A DNA stretch of 64,000 nucleotides from Methyloprofundus sedimenti. Lineage in GTDB: Bacteria; Pseudomonadota; Gammaproteobacteria; Methylococcales; Methylomonadaceae. Positions 29,181 through 35,830 of this stretch are shown piece by piece. A model generated the notes under the pieces. The model was not told where the DNA came from, ran no database searches, and saw nothing but the letters and a program-made list of their open reading frames with translations. The position numbers were made by a program, and so were the translations under genes. Within the stretch, counting starts at the first letter, position 1. Each line of letters begins with the position of its first letter. Location: NCBI RefSeq assembly GCF_002072955.1, contig NZ_LPUF01000001.1:2688896-2752895 (forward strand), written 5' to 3'.

Positions 29181-30269
29181 GAATTCATATAATAACTGCA
29201 ACACCTCTTTAAAGGGTTAGATGGTATAGTTTCCGTCGACTAAAACCTGAAACTAAAAAGAGGTGCTCAATGAACACGTTTAACCATCTAACCCAAGAGG
29301 AAAGATTTTACATTTATACGCAACTAAAACAAGGCTTTTCTAAGAATCAAATAGCCATCACATTGGGGCGTCATAAATCGACTATTGGACGTGAAATTAC
29401 GCGTAATACAGGTCAGTGTGGTTATCGTTACAAGCAAGCTGAGAGAATAGCTAAACAACGCCATATTGATAAGCCCAAAAACATCAAGATGACGGCTGAG
29501 TTACAACAGATAATAACGCCTTTAATCAAAGAGAAATGGAGTCCTGACTGTATTTCAGGACGCTTAAAACAACAAGGTAAGGACTCCGTCAGTCATGAGA
29601 CTATTTACCGTTATATTTTAGCTAACAAAGCAGCCGGTGGCGATTTGTATACTTATTTGAGGCATCAAGCCAAACCTTATCGTAAGCGATATGGAAAAAA
29701 TGATTATCGCGGAACGATACCCAGCCGTGTTGATATTGATGAGCGACCACAAGTGGTTGATGATAAAACGCGTTTAGGTGATTGGGAAGCAGATACTGTT
29801 ATCGGTAAAGGACATAAAGGCGTATTGGTGACGCTGACTGAACGGGTCTCAAAGCTCAACTTCGCCATCTCAATTGAGCGTAAAGAATCTGAATTAACGA
29901 AAGAGGCGATTATCAATGCTCTTGAGCCTTTTAAACGTTGGGTTCACACGATTACCTTTGATAATGGACGTGAGTTTTGTGGGCATGAAGCCATTGCAAA
30001 AACACTTGACTGCGGCACTTATTTTGCCAAACCGTATCATTCGTGGCAACGAGGTTTAAATGAAAACCACAATGGCTTATTAAGGCAATACTTCCCTAAA
30101 AAAGAACCTTTGGATAAGGTAACTCAAGATGAGGTTGATAGTGCAATTACAGCACTTAATCATCGTCCAAGAAAAGGGTTAAATTACAGAACTCCATGGG
30201 AAGTATTTTGCCAAATAACGGGGGTTGATATAAATAAATCACAGGGTGTTGCATTAATTGCTTGAATTC
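29181..30269 (+). mobile_element. Complete IS30-family insertion sequence
   Basis: Imperfect terminal inverted repeats of 25 bases (20 of 25 matching) lie at 29181-29205 and 30245-30269. Both begin GAATTCA and end TGCAACACC. The element is about 1089 bp and holds one intact transposase gene. I see no clear target-site duplication (CCC on the left, GCG on the right), so the exact ends may be off by a few bases. It lies between nadB and the methyltransferase gene and breaks no recognisable gene. Confidence 0.8.
29270..30265 (+). CDS. IS30-family transposase
   Basis: 331 residues, intact. The N-terminal helix-turn-helix reads LTQEERFYIYTQLKQGFSKN with GRHKSTIGREITRN. The DDE catalytic core has aspartates in LGDWEADTVIGKGHKG and TFDNGREFCGHE, and the glutamate in RGLNENHNGLLRQYFPK, the order and spacing of the IS30 family. 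A good Shine-Dalgarno sequence (AAAGAGG) precedes the ATG. The gene ends within the right terminal repeat, and no frameshift is seen, so the element could be active. Confidence 0.95.
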   Translation: MNTFNHLTQEERFYIYTQLKQGFSKNQIAITLGRHKSTIGREITRNTGQCGYRYKQAERIAKQRHIDKPKNIKMTAELQQIITPLIKEKWSPDCISGRLKQQGKDSVSHETIYRYILANKAAGGDLYTYLRHQAKPYRKRYGKNDYRGTIPSRVDIDERPQVVDDKTRLGDWEADTVIGKGHKGVLVTLTERVSKLNFAISIERKESELTKEAIINALEPFKRWVHTITFDNGREFCGHEAIAKTLDCGTYFAKPYHSWQRGLNENHNGLLRQYFPKKEPLDKVTQDEVDSAITALNHRPRKGLNYRTPWEVFCQITGVDINKSQGVALIA

Positions 30270-30412: not shown

Positions 30413-30991
30413 ATGCTCAGCACTCGATTTACCAAACACTCTTTAGTCACTGAAGTGCATAAAACTATTCAGCCGTATTTGTCTGATCAAAGCTTCAGTA
30501 TTGATGCGACTATGGGAAATGGTCATGACACTTTATTTTTAGCCAGACATAGTCATAAAGTCTATGCTTTCGATATACAGGAGAGCGCAATCAAGACAAC
30601 GCGCCAGCGCCTGGAAAATAATCACTGTTTGGATAAAGTTAATTTAATTCATGCAGGCCATGAAGAGATGCTTAAACATGTTCCGGTAAATAAAAATTTC
30701 GCTGCCATTATTTTTAATCTAGGCTATTTACCCCATTCAGACAGCGCTGTTATTACTCAGGAAAAAAGTACGATAAGAGCACTCAGTGCTGCAATAAGCC
30801 TGCTAAGTACGCATGGCATTATCAGTATTATGGCTTACCCAGGTCATACCGGAGGGCAAACAGAATTACAGGCTATTATCCACTGGTGTCATGACTTACA
30901 TAACAAAGACTTTGTAATTACCTTCATACGCAGTATGCAAGAAACAACTGATTCTCCAAGATTCTTTACTATCCAGCCCCCTACAAATTAA
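30413..30991 (+). CDS. Class I SAM methyltransferase, MnmM/YtqB family
   Basis: 192 residues. The SAM-binding motif I is IDATMGNGHDTLFLAR. The family signature is IIFNLGYLPHSD, followed by ISIMAYPGHTGGQTE. This set matches the rRNA-methylase-like YtqB family, members of which (MnmM) methylate the 5-aminomethyl group of tRNA wobble uridine. Which tRNA it acts on here is inference. It stands alone, with an IS30 copy upstream and the DUF6164 gene 167 bases downstream. Confidence 0.82.
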   Translation: MLSTRFTKHSLVTEVHKTIQPYLSDQSFSIDATMGNGHDTLFLARHSHKVYAFDIQESAIKTTRQRLENNHCLDKVNLIHAGHEEMLKHVPVNKNFAAIIFNLGYLPHSDSAVITQEKSTIRALSAAISLLSTHGIISIMAYPGHTGGQTELQAIIHWCHDLHNKDFVITFIRSMQETTDSPRFFTIQPPTN

Positions 30992-31158
30992 ACAAGACAT
31001 AAACCGGCTCCTTTATCTTGCATTTTCAATCCAAGTCTTAATTGCCCTTTGTCCTGGTATCTTGTCTGGACTTTTTTCTGGCATAAAGATAGCATGAATT
31101 AATTAGGTAGATATTGCTTTTCTAGAAAATATTATTAAACATTCAGACTAACACAACA

Positions 31159-31524
31159 ATGGCCCTATTACTTTTTTCTTTACGACATGTACCTGATGAT
31201 GAAGCAGCTGATATCCGTGAATTATTGGAGGAAAACCAGATCGATTTCTATGAAACCAATGCCGGCAACTGGGGTATCTCGATGCCTGCCATCTGGTTGC
31301 GAGATAAACAACAACATGAATATGCCCGTCAACTGATTGATGAATATCAGCAGGAGCGGTGTAAAGTTATTCAAGCAGAATATGCCAGGTTCAAACAGAC
31401 AGGTGAAGCCAATACTTTTTTAAAGAACCTGTGGCATTATCCCGCACAAACAATTCTGTTTATCTCAGCAATCATTTTGGTACTTTATGTATCAATCAAG
31501 CTGGTGCTGGAATTTGGGTTGTAG
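31159..31524 (+). CDS. Small membrane protein, DUF6164-like
   Basis: 121 residues. A soluble N-terminal part (LLFSLRHVPDDEAADIRELLEEN, then WGISMPAIWLRDKQQHEYARQLIDEYQQER) resembles the DUF2007-like domain that binds near membranes. A single C-terminal transmembrane helix follows (about residues 96-118). I believe this is the DUF6164 family; its function is unknown. It is convergent with the tatD remnant. In an ancestral arrangement it may have been next to tatD itself. Confidence 0.7.
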   Translation: MALLLFSLRHVPDDEAADIRELLEENQIDFYETNAGNWGISMPAIWLRDKQQHEYARQLIDEYQQERCKVIQAEYARFKQTGEANTFLKNLWHYPAQTILFISAIILVLYVSIKLVLEFGL

Positions 31525-31569
31525 ATTATTCCTTGTTCTCAGCTGAAACAAAGGAACAAGCATAACAGT

Positions 31570-31764
31570 TACTTAAAGCACGCAATTTTTTTGGAGCGCA
31601 GAGGCAGACGGGCATCTGCACTAAGCAGGCAAGGAACCTACGCTCCTAAGATGAAATTTCACATATTCCTAAACACTATACAAACATATAAAATTATCCT
31701 TAGATTACCGAGAAAGAGTCTCGATATCTGCCTCACGCAAGCCTGCTATATACTGCGCCACATG
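31570..31764 (-). pseudogene. Diverged second copy of the tatD 3' end and downstream flank
   Basis: Bases 31661-31764 align without gaps to 34943-35046, the last 31 or so codons of tatD plus flank, with 72 of 104 identical. On the minus strand it reads HVAQYIAGLREADIETLSR, a stop, then SKDNF, against HVAQYLADLRETSLDIITR in tatD. Even the tatD TAG stop codon is conserved. Beyond the stop, both copies share a TTTTTTTGGA[AG]CGCAGA stretch (31586-31602 here, near 34869-34884 in the other). The remnant has an internal stop and no 5' part. The two copies are in direct orientation, 3282 bp apart, and bracket xfp. Confidence 0.8.
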
Positions 31765-31809
31765 CTACCATTAAATTAAGTCGTGCGTAGTGACTGCTTT
31801 AATCTATAT

Positions 31810-31842
31810 AAGCGGAATTGAATCACAGATCCATTTCCGCTT
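31810..31842 (-). terminator. Possible xfp terminator hairpin
   Basis: Perfect 8-base arms AAGCGGAA and TTCCGCTT around a 17-base loop, 49 bases beyond the xfp stop. No T-run follows, so termination is uncertain. Confidence 0.35.
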
Positions 31843-31890
31843 CAGTTCTCAGAACGATTTAAACATTTCCATTTTTACAAGTCATGATCC

Positions 31891-34287
31891 TTAATAAGGC
31901 CAAACCCACTGATCATCTTCAGGTTTGTCAATACCATGTTCATAAGCATAGTTACGACAGTCAATTTGTTGATCACGCAGATGTTCTTTAACGTGAGCAC
32001 CTGAAATCTGTAAAGATGGAATACGATCGATGGCATCTATTGCCAGGCTGAAACGGTCGGTTTCGTTTTGAATAGCCAATTCCAGAGGGGTATTGATACT
32101 GCCTTTTTCCTTGTAGCCGCGCACATGCAAATTCTTATGGTTATTGCGACGATAAGCCAGCCTATGAATTAGCCAAGGGTAACCATGAAAATTAAAGATG
32201 ACCAGTTTATCAGTAGTGAACAAGCTATCAAAATCACGATCCGAAAGCCCATGTGGGTGCTCACTGCTGGGTACTAATTTGTATAGATCCACGACATTGA
32301 TAAAGCGAATTTTGATTTGCGGAAAGTTCTCACGCAATAAGACAACCGCGGCTAAGGCCTCCTTGGTTGGAATATCTCCCGCACTGGCCATCACTAAATC
32401 TGGTTCAAAACCGCTATCGTTACTCGCCCACTCCCAAATACTAATACCTTTGGTGCAGTGCTTAATGGCTGCATCCATATCCAGGTATTGCAGATGTTTC
32501 TGTTTATCGGAAACAATCACATTTATATAGTTGGTGCTTTGCAGGCAATGATCTGCAACAGAAAGCAGACAGTTCACATCCGGTGGCAGATAGATACGGG
32601 TAACGGATGGGCTCTTGTTGACAACCAGATCAATAAATCCCGGATCCTGATGGGTAAATCCATTGTGATCCTGCCGCCAAACGGTAGAAGTAATCAGCAG
32701 GTTGAGCGATGAGATTGCCGCGCGCCAAGGTACATCCTTGGACATGGCGAGCCATTTTGCGTGCTGGTTAAACATGGAATCAATCACATGTACAAATGCT
32801 TCGTAGGTAGAGAAGAAACCATGCCGTCCGGTCAGTAAATAACCTTCCAACCAGCCTTCCAACGTATGCTCAGAAAGCATTTCCATTACTCGGCCATCTG
32901 GCGATAGTTCGCCGCCGTCAGCATCTTTCGGTAGATAATCCGCTAACCAAGTTTTTTTGCTTGCAGCATAAATGTCGTCCAGCTTGTTGGAGCTATTTTC
33001 ATCGGGGCCAAAGACACGAAAATTACTCATGTTTTCGCTCATGATATCGCGCAGGAATTTGCCTAGCGGTCGCGTGTTTTCCGCAGTGATTTTACCAGGA
33101 TTTTCTAGGACCAGCGTGTAATTCCTAAAATCCGGCATACGTAATGCTTTGCGCAACAAGCCACCATTAGCATGCGGATTCGTGCTCATGCGCTGTGTAC
33201 CTTTAGGCGCCAGCGCCTTAAGCTCGGGGATTAATCTACCGTTGCCATCAAATAATTCTTCGGGGTTGTAACTGCGCAGCCAATCTTCCAGTTGTTGCAG
33301 ATGCGCTGGGTTTTCTTTTACACCTGCAAGAGGCACCTGATGTGCACGCCAAAATGCCTCCACCTTGTGACCATCGACTTCCTTGGGACCTGTCCAGCCT
33401 TTAGGGCTGCGTAAGATGATCATTGGCCAGAGAGGACGTGCTGGAATACCTGTGCGGCGTGCATCTTCCTGAATGCGTCGAATTTCCAACACACAAGTTT
33501 CCAAAACACTTGCCATCAATTGATGCATTGTTTCAGGGTCACAGCCTTCCACGAAATAGGGTGTATAACCGTAACCTTGGAACAGACTTTCCAGTTCCTG
33601 GTGAGAAATCCGCGACAATATTGTCGGATTATTGATTTTATAACCATTCAAGTGCAATATCGGCAATACCGCGCCATCACGTATAGGATTGAGGAATTTA
33701 TTAGAATGCCAGGAAGTCGCCAAAGGCCCTGTTTCCGACTCACCATCACCTACCATGACCGTTACAATCAAATCAGGATTATCATAAGCCGCACCGTAAG
33801 CATGAGAGATACTATAACCTAGCTCACCGCCTTCATGAATGGAGCCTGGTGTTTCAGGTGTGCAGTGGCTACCGATACCCCCAGGGAAAGAAAACTCCTT
33901 GAAAAACTGCAATAACCCCTCTTCATCTTCGCCTTTATTGGGATAAATTTCCGAATAGCTCCCTTCAAGATAAGCCGGAGCCAATACCCCTGGTGCGCCG
34001 TGGCCTGGTCCCGCCATAAAAATAGCATCAAGCGCATACTTGTTAATAAGCCGGTTCATATGGATATAGGTAAAGCTCAGGCCAGGACTTGATCCCCAGT
34101 GCCCAAGAAGCCTATTTTTAATATGCTCAGGCTTTAAAGGCTCCTTTAAAAGAGGATTCTCACGCAGATATATCATACCAGCGGCGAGGTAATTACAAGC
34201 TTCCCAATAAGCATTAATTCTGTGCAACTCAGCTTCATTTAAAGGCGTGCCAGGAGATGAGTTTGTTGAACTATTTGATTCAGTCAT
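31891..34287 (-). CDS. xfp: Phosphoketolase (xylulose-5-P / fructose-6-P)
   Basis: 798 residues, the normal length. Typical motifs are [22 protein letters not shown], the thiamine diphosphate-binding [37 protein letters not shown] and [19 protein letters not shown]. It cleaves xylulose 5-phosphate (or fructose 6-phosphate) with phosphate to acetyl-phosphate and glyceraldehyde 3-phosphate (or erythrose 4-phosphate). A good Shine-Dalgarno (AAGG) precedes the ATG. By eye, its GC is higher than that of its neighbours. It is monocistronic, with no adjacent ackA. It is bracketed by direct copies of the tatD 3' end, which suggests acquisition or a rearrangement at this spot. Confidence 0.96.
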
Positions 34288-34950
34288 AGGTATGCCTTTT
34301 TAAAGTGGTTGAAAAAGATAAATTATAGCCAATAGTCAGGAACAAGATAAATACAGTTTATTATAGGAAATTATCTATCGAGATTATGACAATTGTATTA
34401 ATCAGACTGATGCTGCTCAACATAGGTCGTAAAAATCCAGACCTTAGAACGTCACTTTTTAGGCAGTAACAGAGTTTAAAATAGCTCGCAAAATGCCATA
34501 GTTATATTAGATTGTAATAAAACTATAATATTTAATCAATAGAATATCATGTGCTATAAATCGCATGTCACTGATCATTTTAGAAGTTACGCATTGACGA
34601 CAGGTTGAAATTCTGGGTTTAAATGGCTTATATTTGGCATAAACGACTCAATAAATGAAGCCATGATGTCTTTGAATAAATTTCGTTGCACACTATAGCA
34701 ATTACTAATTTTCTCCGCGAAGTTCAATTTGCCAATGCCAATCATGTTGTTCGGTAAAATCCCTACTGTCAAAGGACTTGGTTTGCTCGTCATTAGTTAG
34801 TGCATGGATACAAGTATAACAGCAGTATCGCTTGCCAAGAGGTGAGCATCAAATAACTTAGGCAAACATTTTTTTGGAACGCAGACTCTCGGCCTGAATT
34901 GAGCAGACAAACCGCCTCAAATCTTGATATTTTGTTTTTTATACATATTT
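34288..34950. other. 663-base gap between xfp and tatD
   Basis: It should hold the xfp promoter. A 68-codon minus-strand ORF (34587-34793) has an ATG and no recognisable domain. Another frame of the same DNA reads DFTEQHDWHWQIELRGEN before a stop, which also looks protein-like. This may be decayed coding DNA carried in with xfp. The part from about 34853 is the downstream flank of tatD and is duplicated at 31570-31660. Confidence 0.45.
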
Positions 34951-35721
34951 CTAAACGTTAAACAAACGCCTAAAATTTTCATTAGACTGCCGGGTAATAA
35001 TGTCCAGACTGGTTTCACGTAAATCCGCCAAATATTGTGCAACATGTTGCACATAAATAGGATAGTTGGATTTGCCGCGAAATGGAACCGGGGCGAGATA
35101 AGGTGAGTCGGTCTCTATTAGATAACGATCAGCAGGGACTTTTTTAGCCACTTCCTGAATTGCTTTAGCATTTTTAAAAGTCACAATTCCGGAAAATGAA
35201 ATATAAAAATTCAAGTCCATTGCTTGCCGGGCAAAATCCCAATCCTCGGTAAAGCAATGAATGACACCTCCAACTTCATCAGCACCCTGCTCTTTTAGTA
35301 AGCGTAAAGTATCTTTAGCTGCATCGCGGGTATGGATAATAAGCGGCTTTCTGGTCGCTTTGGATGCAGCTATATGATTTTTAAACCGCTCATGCTGCCA
35401 GGTCAAATCCCCTTCACTACGAAAATAATCCAGTCCCGTTTCGCCAATAGCTACCACACGCTTATTTTCTGCCAAGGCGATTAATTCATCAGTACTGGGG
35501 TCCTGCCCTTCATCTACATTAGGATGTACACCTACTGATAAAGAAATATTCTGATAAGGCTTTACCAGATCACTCATTGCGGGATAAGCCTCAAGATCAA
35601 TGCTAATACATAGCATATGTTCAATTTTATTTTTTACTGTTGCCTGCATAAAACAGGAAAAATCATTCTCATAAGGGGTTAAATCGAGTTTATCCAGATG
35701 ACAGTGTGAATCTATTAACAT
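34951..35721 (-). CDS. tatD: TatD-family metal-dependent hydrolase (YcfH/TatD DNase)
   Basis: 256 residues. Metal-binding and catalytic motifs of the family are present: SHCHLDKLDL, GVHPNVDEGQ, the glutamate in IGETGLDYF, PLIIHTRDA, VIHCFTEDW and the aspartate in IETDSPYLAPVPFRGK. Members are 3'-5' exonucleases or deoxyribonucleases acting in DNA repair. YcfH and TatD cannot be told apart here. Its 3' end is duplicated at 31661-31764. It is divergent from mobB, and a palindrome lies between the two starts. Confidence 0.9.
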   Translation of the reverse strand: MLIDSHCHLDKLDLTPYENDFSCFMQATVKNKIEHMLCISIDLEAYPAMSDLVKPYQNISLSVGVHPNVDEGQDPSTDELIALAENKRVVAIGETGLDYFRSEGDLTWQHERFKNHIAASKATRKPLIIHTRDAAKDTLRLLKEQGADEVGGVIHCFTEDWDFARQAMDLNFYISFSGIVTFKNAKAIQEVAKKVPADRYLIETDSPYLAPVPFRGKSNYPIYVQHVAQYLADLRETSLDIITRQSNENFRRLFNV

Positions 35722-35763
35722 GTTTATAAGAATCTCTTGGTAACATTAATTATAAAGTTTTTT

Positions 35764-35796
35764 ACTTGGTGCGCTAAGCCTGGCACCAAGTATAAT
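35764..35796. promoter_or_regulatory. Palindrome and -10-like box between tatD and mobB
   Basis: Perfect 9-base inverted repeat ACTTGGTGC (35764-35772) and GCACCAAGT (35783-35791), overlapping a TATAAT at 35791-35796. It lies in the divergent promoter region, 35 bases upstream of mobB. It could be an operator or simply a stable hairpin. Confidence 0.4.
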
Positions 35797-35830
35797 ATGG
35801 CTATGTATTACTATAAATGCTTAATCTAAC

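Follow-up and report, generated by a model that had tools for sequence, protein, structure and literature searches.

A gene for phosphoketolase, xfp, lies between two ends of the gene tatD in Methyloprofundus sedimenti, and this locus is the subject of the present analysis. By the window we mean the whole stretch of DNA analysed, 64,000 nucleotides long (assembly GCF_002072955.1, contig NZ_LPUF01000001.1, positions 2,688,896 to 2,752,895). Along the minus strand, an intact tatD-family gene is followed by a decayed repeat, a fragment of an insertion sequence (IS), xfp itself, a tatD remnant and a further copy of the repeat, after which comes a DUF6164 gene on the opposite strand (Table 1). Both repeats resemble a miniature inverted-repeat transposable element (MITE). 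The feature is real; it is probably a scar left when DNA was inserted or duplicated long ago, an ordinary piece of genome plasticity produced by a known process.

Table 1. Features between the DUF6164 gene and the intact tatD gene, in window coordinates.
Feature	Position	Strand	Basis
DUF6164 gene	31159..31524	+	Pfam PF19661; adjacency without xfp in G002
MITE-b, decayed palindromic dispersed repeat of ~125 bp, begins in the stop codon of the remnant	31550..31672	-	70% to G009 repeat, E 1.8e-10; model R1 (copy in model)
tatD remnant: last 31 codons and stop, one internal stop, 5' part missing	31669..31764	-	HMM E 4.6e-11; 72/104 to intact gene
Downstream flank of xfp, between xfp and tatD remnant	31765..31890	-	No match in the xfp loci compared; other-genus matches listed start at 31874 or later
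xfp, phosphoketolase, 798 aa, intact	31891..34287	-	Pfam XFP_N/XFP/XFP_C; NCBIfam NF003617
xfp upstream region; ~150 bp next to the gene weakly resemble DNA upstream of other-genus xfp	34288..34580	-	blastn 61-72%, E 5e-6 to 0.035, 4 of 28 loci
IS701-family remnant	34581..34804	-	94% over 150 bp and 96% over 81 bp to full own-genome copy
MITE-a, more decayed repeat copy, begins in the stop codon of intact tatD	34836..34954	-	65% to G009 repeat, E 9.7e-6; model R1 (copy in model)
Intact tatD-family gene	34951..35721	-	Pfam PF01026; best NCBIfam profile PRK10812 (under its cut-off); over TIGR00010 cut-off

An earlier note on this DNA had reported that positions 31661-31764 match 34943-35046 without gaps at 72 of 104 positions, stop codon included, in the same orientation and 3282 bp apart, with xfp between them. 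All of this was borne out; both copies are on the minus strand. When the 104-mer was slid along both strands of the window (mean 27 identities, sd 4.5), its best place besides itself was 34943 with 72, followed by a place with 48; BLASTN between the two intergenic regions gave E 2e-8, and a gapped alignment reaches 142/222. A hidden Markov model (HMM) of 15 C-termini of tatD from the genus, run against the six-frame translation of the window with stops read as X, matched the intact end (E 2e-20) and, at 31672-31764, the remnant (E 4.6e-11), with no third place. The remnant translates as HVAQYIAGLREADIETLSR*SKDNFICLYSV*, with one internal stop (TAA) ahead of the terminal stop that both ends share. 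It thus combines in-frame homology to the TatD C-terminus with a disrupted and truncated frame, the two marks of a pseudogene, which agrees with the earlier description of a TatD C-terminus carrying an internal stop.

For comparison we used 18 Methyloprofundus genomes, namely our own (4,290,526 bases in 6 contigs) and 17 others, with completeness between 63 and 100%. The own genome holds one full TatD-family gene, and a 48-aa C-terminal query recovers the second tatD end there (E 2e-4); the same query found no second end in the other 17 genomes, where four extra matches had E 0.18-0.90 and G012 gave no match. The intact end is, judged by its sequence, an ordinary Methyloprofundus tatD end, and the nearest named records of tatD are Bathymodiolus methanotrophic symbionts and Methyloprofundus metagenome-assembled genomes. 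A mosaic gene was considered and rejected, the identity to relatives in 96-nt windows having no clear breakpoint. As a side observation, tatD of G003 is 92% identical over 235 residues, and the contigs concerned (L155 = G003:C304; G003:C153:1-132) stop inside tatD and inside DUF6164; the break lies near the equivalent of the remnant start, and the assembly gap might hide a similar arrangement.

The similarity continues past the stop codon into a shared TTTTTTTGGA..CGCAGA stretch, as the earlier note had stated, but by its sequence this stretch is part of a dispersed MITE-like repeat and not of the tatD flank. In both tatD ends the repeat begins at one and the same base of the stop codon, and this coincidence, which the earlier reader overlooked, is the point that needs explanation. 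With the DNA of 31540-31672 as query we found 31 matching places in the genome G009. The G009 element is 127 bp long, with TTAGGAATG...CATTCCTTA terminal inverted repeats and a central GGAGCGCAGG...CGTCTGCGCTCC stem, and as a short non-coding dispersed repeat with such ends it can be called MITE-like. Nine distinct G009 copies are nearly identical to their consensus (six identical, two at 99.2%, one at 98.4%), which suggests a recent spread of the repeat there. They carry TTA at both ends, which may belong to the element itself rather than to a target duplication. In full-length alignment to the G009 repeat, MITE-b scored 49.7 (maximum of 500 shuffles 16.3) and MITE-a 36.8 (maximum 18.5); on this comparison and on blastn, both window repeats count as members of the G009 family. 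The likeness to bacterial MITEs in size, terminal inverted repeats, strong hairpin, TTA ends and many near-identical copies holds for the G009 element, whereas the two window copies are decayed: folded as single-stranded DNA, the G009 copy reached z -6.87 and the window copies z -1.15 and +1.29, no better than shuffles.

We combined five copies from G009 with the two of the window in a covariance model, which had matches in 17 of the 18 genus genomes (99 in G009, 23 in our own); the window copies match it by construction, and near-palindromes can count on both strands. Methyloprofundus thus harbours a dispersed MITE-like family whose central hairpin varies and whose ends resemble TTAGGAATG (L157-L165, L269-L288). 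Rfam gave no match over 30900-35800. Among 29 further repeat copies (12 from the own genome, nine from G009 and eight from four other genomes), one starts at the stop codon of an open reading frame (ORF). That copy (L280, G000:C1:1789606-1789730) is in the own genome and begins exactly at the stop codon of an open frame of 130 codons. Given this one in 29, two separate insertions at the same stop-codon base appear less likely. The tatD genes of G001, G002, G007 and G015 end in GTTTAA or GTTTAG, that is, with TTA at the stop; from that TTA onward G002 reads TTAGGGATGT and the repeat TTAGGAATGT, a resemblance that may be chance.

The xfp gene is the single xfp match of its genome. Nine of the other 17 genus genomes have a match, seven of them full-length and 61-65% identical, two partial (64 and 53%), and in eight none was found; several of these assemblies are incomplete, which bears on all such counts of genes not found. 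Where both genes were found, the genus xfps either lie on a different contig from tatD or are separated from it by 47 kb or more. This xfp type is present in one of the 18 genomes. Across the order, 232 of 311 genomes have an xfp match; the best 29 after our own belong to several other genera and share 87-90% identity with it. A tree was drawn from 37 sequences (our own, the seven full-length genus copies and the 29 best-listed loci of the 232 genomes with a match). In it, the own xfp falls inside the other-genera type, adjoining two g13 sequences with support 0.96, and the genus type forms a separate long branch. That separate long-branched phosphoketolase is found in G016, G006, G010, G012, G005, G009 and G014 (L102-L108). 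Within the genus, xfp would then have undergone an apparent replacement. The guanine-cytosine content at third codon positions (GC3), a comparison with the neighbours that the earlier note had proposed, is 0.436 in xfp against 0.30-0.40 in six nearby genes. Patchy presence, position and raised GC3 together favour a gain of the gene.

An arrangement without xfp is preserved in G002, the kind of relative that the earlier note had suggested looking for. There the order is nadB, mraW, a 721-aa transporter-like gene, DUF6164, about 480 bp and then tatD-mobB-moeA-bcp, with DUF6164 convergent on tatD; the tatD-mobB-moeA-bcp group is oriented as in our genome, and the locus has neither xfp nor a second tatD end. 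The order tatD-mobB-moeA also occurs in G007 and G013 (DUF6164 was not found in G007 and is on another contig in G013); at the other loci mobB was outside the available stretch, and several contigs were short. The neighbours found here on the mobB side and on the DUF6164 side adjoin each other in G002. The insert is thus flanked on both sides by an arrangement shared with that genome, and DUF6164 is likely the original downstream convergent neighbour of tatD. The G002 site without xfp, the failure to find this xfp type in the 17 other genus genomes searched (several of them incomplete) and the raised GC3 make an insertion in this lineage likely. The earlier note had said that insertion would lose ground if all relatives carried xfp and both tatD ends at this place; one of the 18 genus genomes does. 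It had left insertion and duplication at the tatD end side by side. Its insertion stands as likely, and its suggestion that a replacement end had been supplied is unsupported, the intact end being ordinary and free of a visible mosaic break.

Among the matches listed, those from other genera cover 31765-34580 only over about 31874-34304, which is the xfp gene. The short decayed segment mentioned in the earlier note is indeed there, and it holds a truncated IS701-family fragment (34581-34804). This fragment keeps its right end, has lost its left end and lacks some 120 bp of its interior, the deletion lying between two copies of a 7-base repeat. It resembles an IS701-family IS in its 94-96% nucleotide identity to the full copy in the own genome (L234), on which the family call rests (NCBIfam NF049921, 389.9 bits against a cut-off of 250), and differs from one in being a truncated remnant. 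A spacer ORF of 68 aa was discarded as a gene; it has no Pfam match and was accounted for by the own-genome search. The fragment is much less diverged than the tatD ends and is thus probably a later arrival; for the same reason it is an unlikely cause of the duplicated end. As the earlier note had observed, no integrase was recognised between the two tatD ends, where nothing but xfp and the IS701 fragment was recognised, the rest of the window being unscanned for integrases.

How the remnant is related to the intact end was assessed over 93 nt. The remnant differs from tatD of G001 at 24 sites, of G015 at 26, of G002 at 27 and of G007 at 33, and from the own intact copy at 31. (G003 was left out of the 93-nt and tree analyses because a contig end lies inside its tatD, and G012 because tatD was not found there; L014, a duplicate of G011, was dropped from the tatD tree, and L017, L028, L029 and L046 are in the 93-nt difference table and absent from that tree.) Between the two own copies, 17 of 31 third positions differ against 14 of 62 first and second positions. 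At these 62 positions, both the remnant and the intact copy have 9 and 10 differences from G015 and G001, respectively. Placed on each of 39 branches, the remnant fitted best with G015, and 14 other branches were within 4 log units. One of these is the own branch, which lost 0.8 units; another is the stem of the other-genus sequences, with a loss of 3.7 (approximately unbiased test, AU, 0.083). A position among five other-genus sequences was rejected (18.5-31.5 log units lower, AU 0.006 or less). In the backbone tree the other genera sit next to G002, perhaps through a long-branch artefact. In FastTree the remnant joined G001 and G002 with support 0.55. Its synonymous divergence from the genus consensus is 0.54, against 0.48-0.74 in functional members, and its non-synonymous divergence (pN) of 0.22 is the highest of twelve, the 11 functional members having 0.05-0.19; its ratio of non-synonymous to synonymous divergence of 0.40, against 0.09-0.39 in those members, is an ambiguous coding signal. 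These values fit a Methyloprofundus-like tatD end that may have diverged partly under constraint and then decayed, and 93 nt allow no more than this; the remnant could be the native end, a donor end or a decayed duplicate.

Considering all the above results, we tentatively lean towards an old insertion in which xfp would have integrated through a shared tatD end plus repeat, and we place this a little short of an even chance. The starting order would have been DUF6164 convergent on a tatD whose stop codon held the MITE-like repeat. Incoming DNA may have carried a second, related Methyloprofundus tatD end with its repeat, linked to an xfp from another Methylococcaceae lineage, and may have recombined with the chromosome through the shared stretch, by a single crossover or by one-sided homologous integration. 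Either exchange would yield a full gene, an insert and a 5'-truncated second end in one step, and the product would read mobB, intact tatD, repeat, xfp, truncated tatD end, repeat, DUF6164. The redundant tatD end would then have decayed, and an IS701 element would have inserted behind tatD and later been truncated itself. The order of these steps and the recombination route are what we infer, as is the gain of xfp rather than its retention. In favour of integration through a shared end are the remnant lying nearer to tatD of G001, G015 and G002 than to the own intact copy, the third-position excess of differences between the copies, the identity of xfp (87-90% to other genera against 61-65% to the full-length genus xfps) and the occurrence of a second tatD end in one of 18 genus genomes.

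Several results weigh against this. MITE-a and MITE-b are not mutual best matches, each matching better elsewhere, and their direct distance depends on the gap cost (22/103 to 36/111) and hardly stands out from that of shuffled sequences (mean 0.41 and minimum 0.20 at the gap setting that gives 36/111), so that the two repeats may have inserted separately. A model scan of ten other genus tatD loci with downstream sequence found no repeat at the stop codon, which means that a donor and a recipient sharing the repeat would both be unseen. The xfp tree that the earlier note had called for does group our gene with the other-genera type, but xfp is 86-93% identical among 13 other-genus sequences, whereas uvrC, compared in 24 genomes, shows 85-91% identity among 8 genomes of the genus and 67-76% between the genus and 16 genomes of other genera. 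Evidently xfp evolves slowly, and a high identity is by itself no proof of transfer. A donor with the order tatD, repeat, xfp was not found: at the 20 other-genus loci read, xfp has other neighbours, often acetate kinase-, glycogen phosphorylase-, phosphoglycerate mutase- or V-type ATPase-like genes, names that were read from the sequences without a family search. Finally, the small cost of placing the remnant on the own branch makes it compatible with a duplicate that arose within the lineage.

Such a duplicate is the core of the explanation that we hold to be nearly as likely as integration, and plausible in its own right. Here tatD and its repeat would have been duplicated in tandem in this lineage, and xfp would have entered between the copies later, removing the 5' part of the second one, whose end then decayed. 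It would account directly for the repeat at the same base of both copies, agrees with the own-branch placement, and predicts the raised pN that a pseudogene should have. It requires two events, however, and two findings run contrary to purely neutral decay from the own copy: the third-position bias, and the equal distances of remnant and intact copy from G015 and G001 at first and second positions; 93 nt cannot separate the two histories. A site-specific integrative element at the 3' end of tatD, which would have supplied a replacement end and later lost its integrase, matches the architecture of intact gene, insert and displaced end. We find it rather improbable, given that no integrase gene was recognised between the ends, that the longest exact run in the coding repeat is 7 bases (decay may hide an att core), and that the divergence between the two ends is close to that seen between tatD ends from separate genomes of the genus. 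It is also unlikely, if marginally less so, that this xfp type is ancestral to the genus and kept here only, with the duplication of the tatD end as an unrelated accident. This type occurs widely across the family, and the identity that it shows to other genera is no more than usual, but its position is unique, repeated losses would be required, and the 17 other genus genomes searched have another type or a fragment (nine) or no xfp found (eight, several of the assemblies being incomplete).

The arrangement has parallels in known systems. Single-crossover (Campbell-type) integration through a 3' fragment of a gene leaves a full-length gene, the insert and a 5'-truncated copy in direct orientation. 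One-sided, RecA-dependent integration is described as homology-facilitated illegitimate recombination (HFIR) in S. pneumoniae, A. baylyi and P. stutzeri (PMC6382021). The locus shares with both the full gene, the insert and the truncated second copy in direct orientation; it differs in being read from the sequence, and in that its copies now differ at 31/93 sites. Streptococcal integrative and mobilizable elements (IMEs) with tyrosine integrases are reported to use tatD (PMC5357655; PMC7563491), and a review table places one such element at the 5' end of the gene (PMC5704250). Their listed sites at protein-gene ends include guaA, rpsI, rpmG and the 5' end of tatD (PMC5357655; PMC5704250; PMC7563491). 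tatD can therefore act as an integration gene, yet nothing here points to an integrase. The earlier remark that tatD ends are not known as a standard integration site is qualified by the streptococcal IME listed at tatD, albeit at the 5' end (PMC5704250), which also lends the integrative-element explanation some weight. Our locus resembles these IMEs in that the insertion lies at one end of a conserved gene and is accompanied by direct repeats. It differs in involving the opposite (3') end, in having no recognised integrase, relaxase or att core, and in carrying a lone metabolic gene as its insert. Among the papers listed in searches of the open-licence literature, none deals with this locus, judging by title or start of abstract.

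The neighbourhood beyond DUF6164 also differs from that of relatives. In G002, G013, G016, G009 and G005 nadB and mraW are direct neighbours; here an IS30-family transposase gene (29270-30265) separates them. From mraW to DUF6164 the distance is about 2.2 kb in G002, G013, G016 and G009 against 167 bp here (30992-31158). The gap holds in G002 the 721-aa gene, which reads as dicarboxylate-transporter-like with a solute-binding part; 31009-31121 matches its start at 69%, and the gene seems lost here.

As for what the repeat might do, a long shot is that at the stop codon it provides portable homology: two MITE copies in the same orientation would bound a cassette of xfp and a tatD tail, which could enter or leave the chromosome by recombination at the gene end with the host gene unbroken. 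More broadly, this locus of a deep-sea methanotroph illustrates how a lineage may replace a gene of central carbon metabolism, that for phosphoketolase. In the relatives sampled, either another xfp or no xfp was found; the own genome carries the family-typical gene at a place not seen elsewhere, and the scar suggests that repeats at gene ends may serve as anchors when DNA integrates. Should this hold, the locus would exemplify, in well-dissected form, a process already known.

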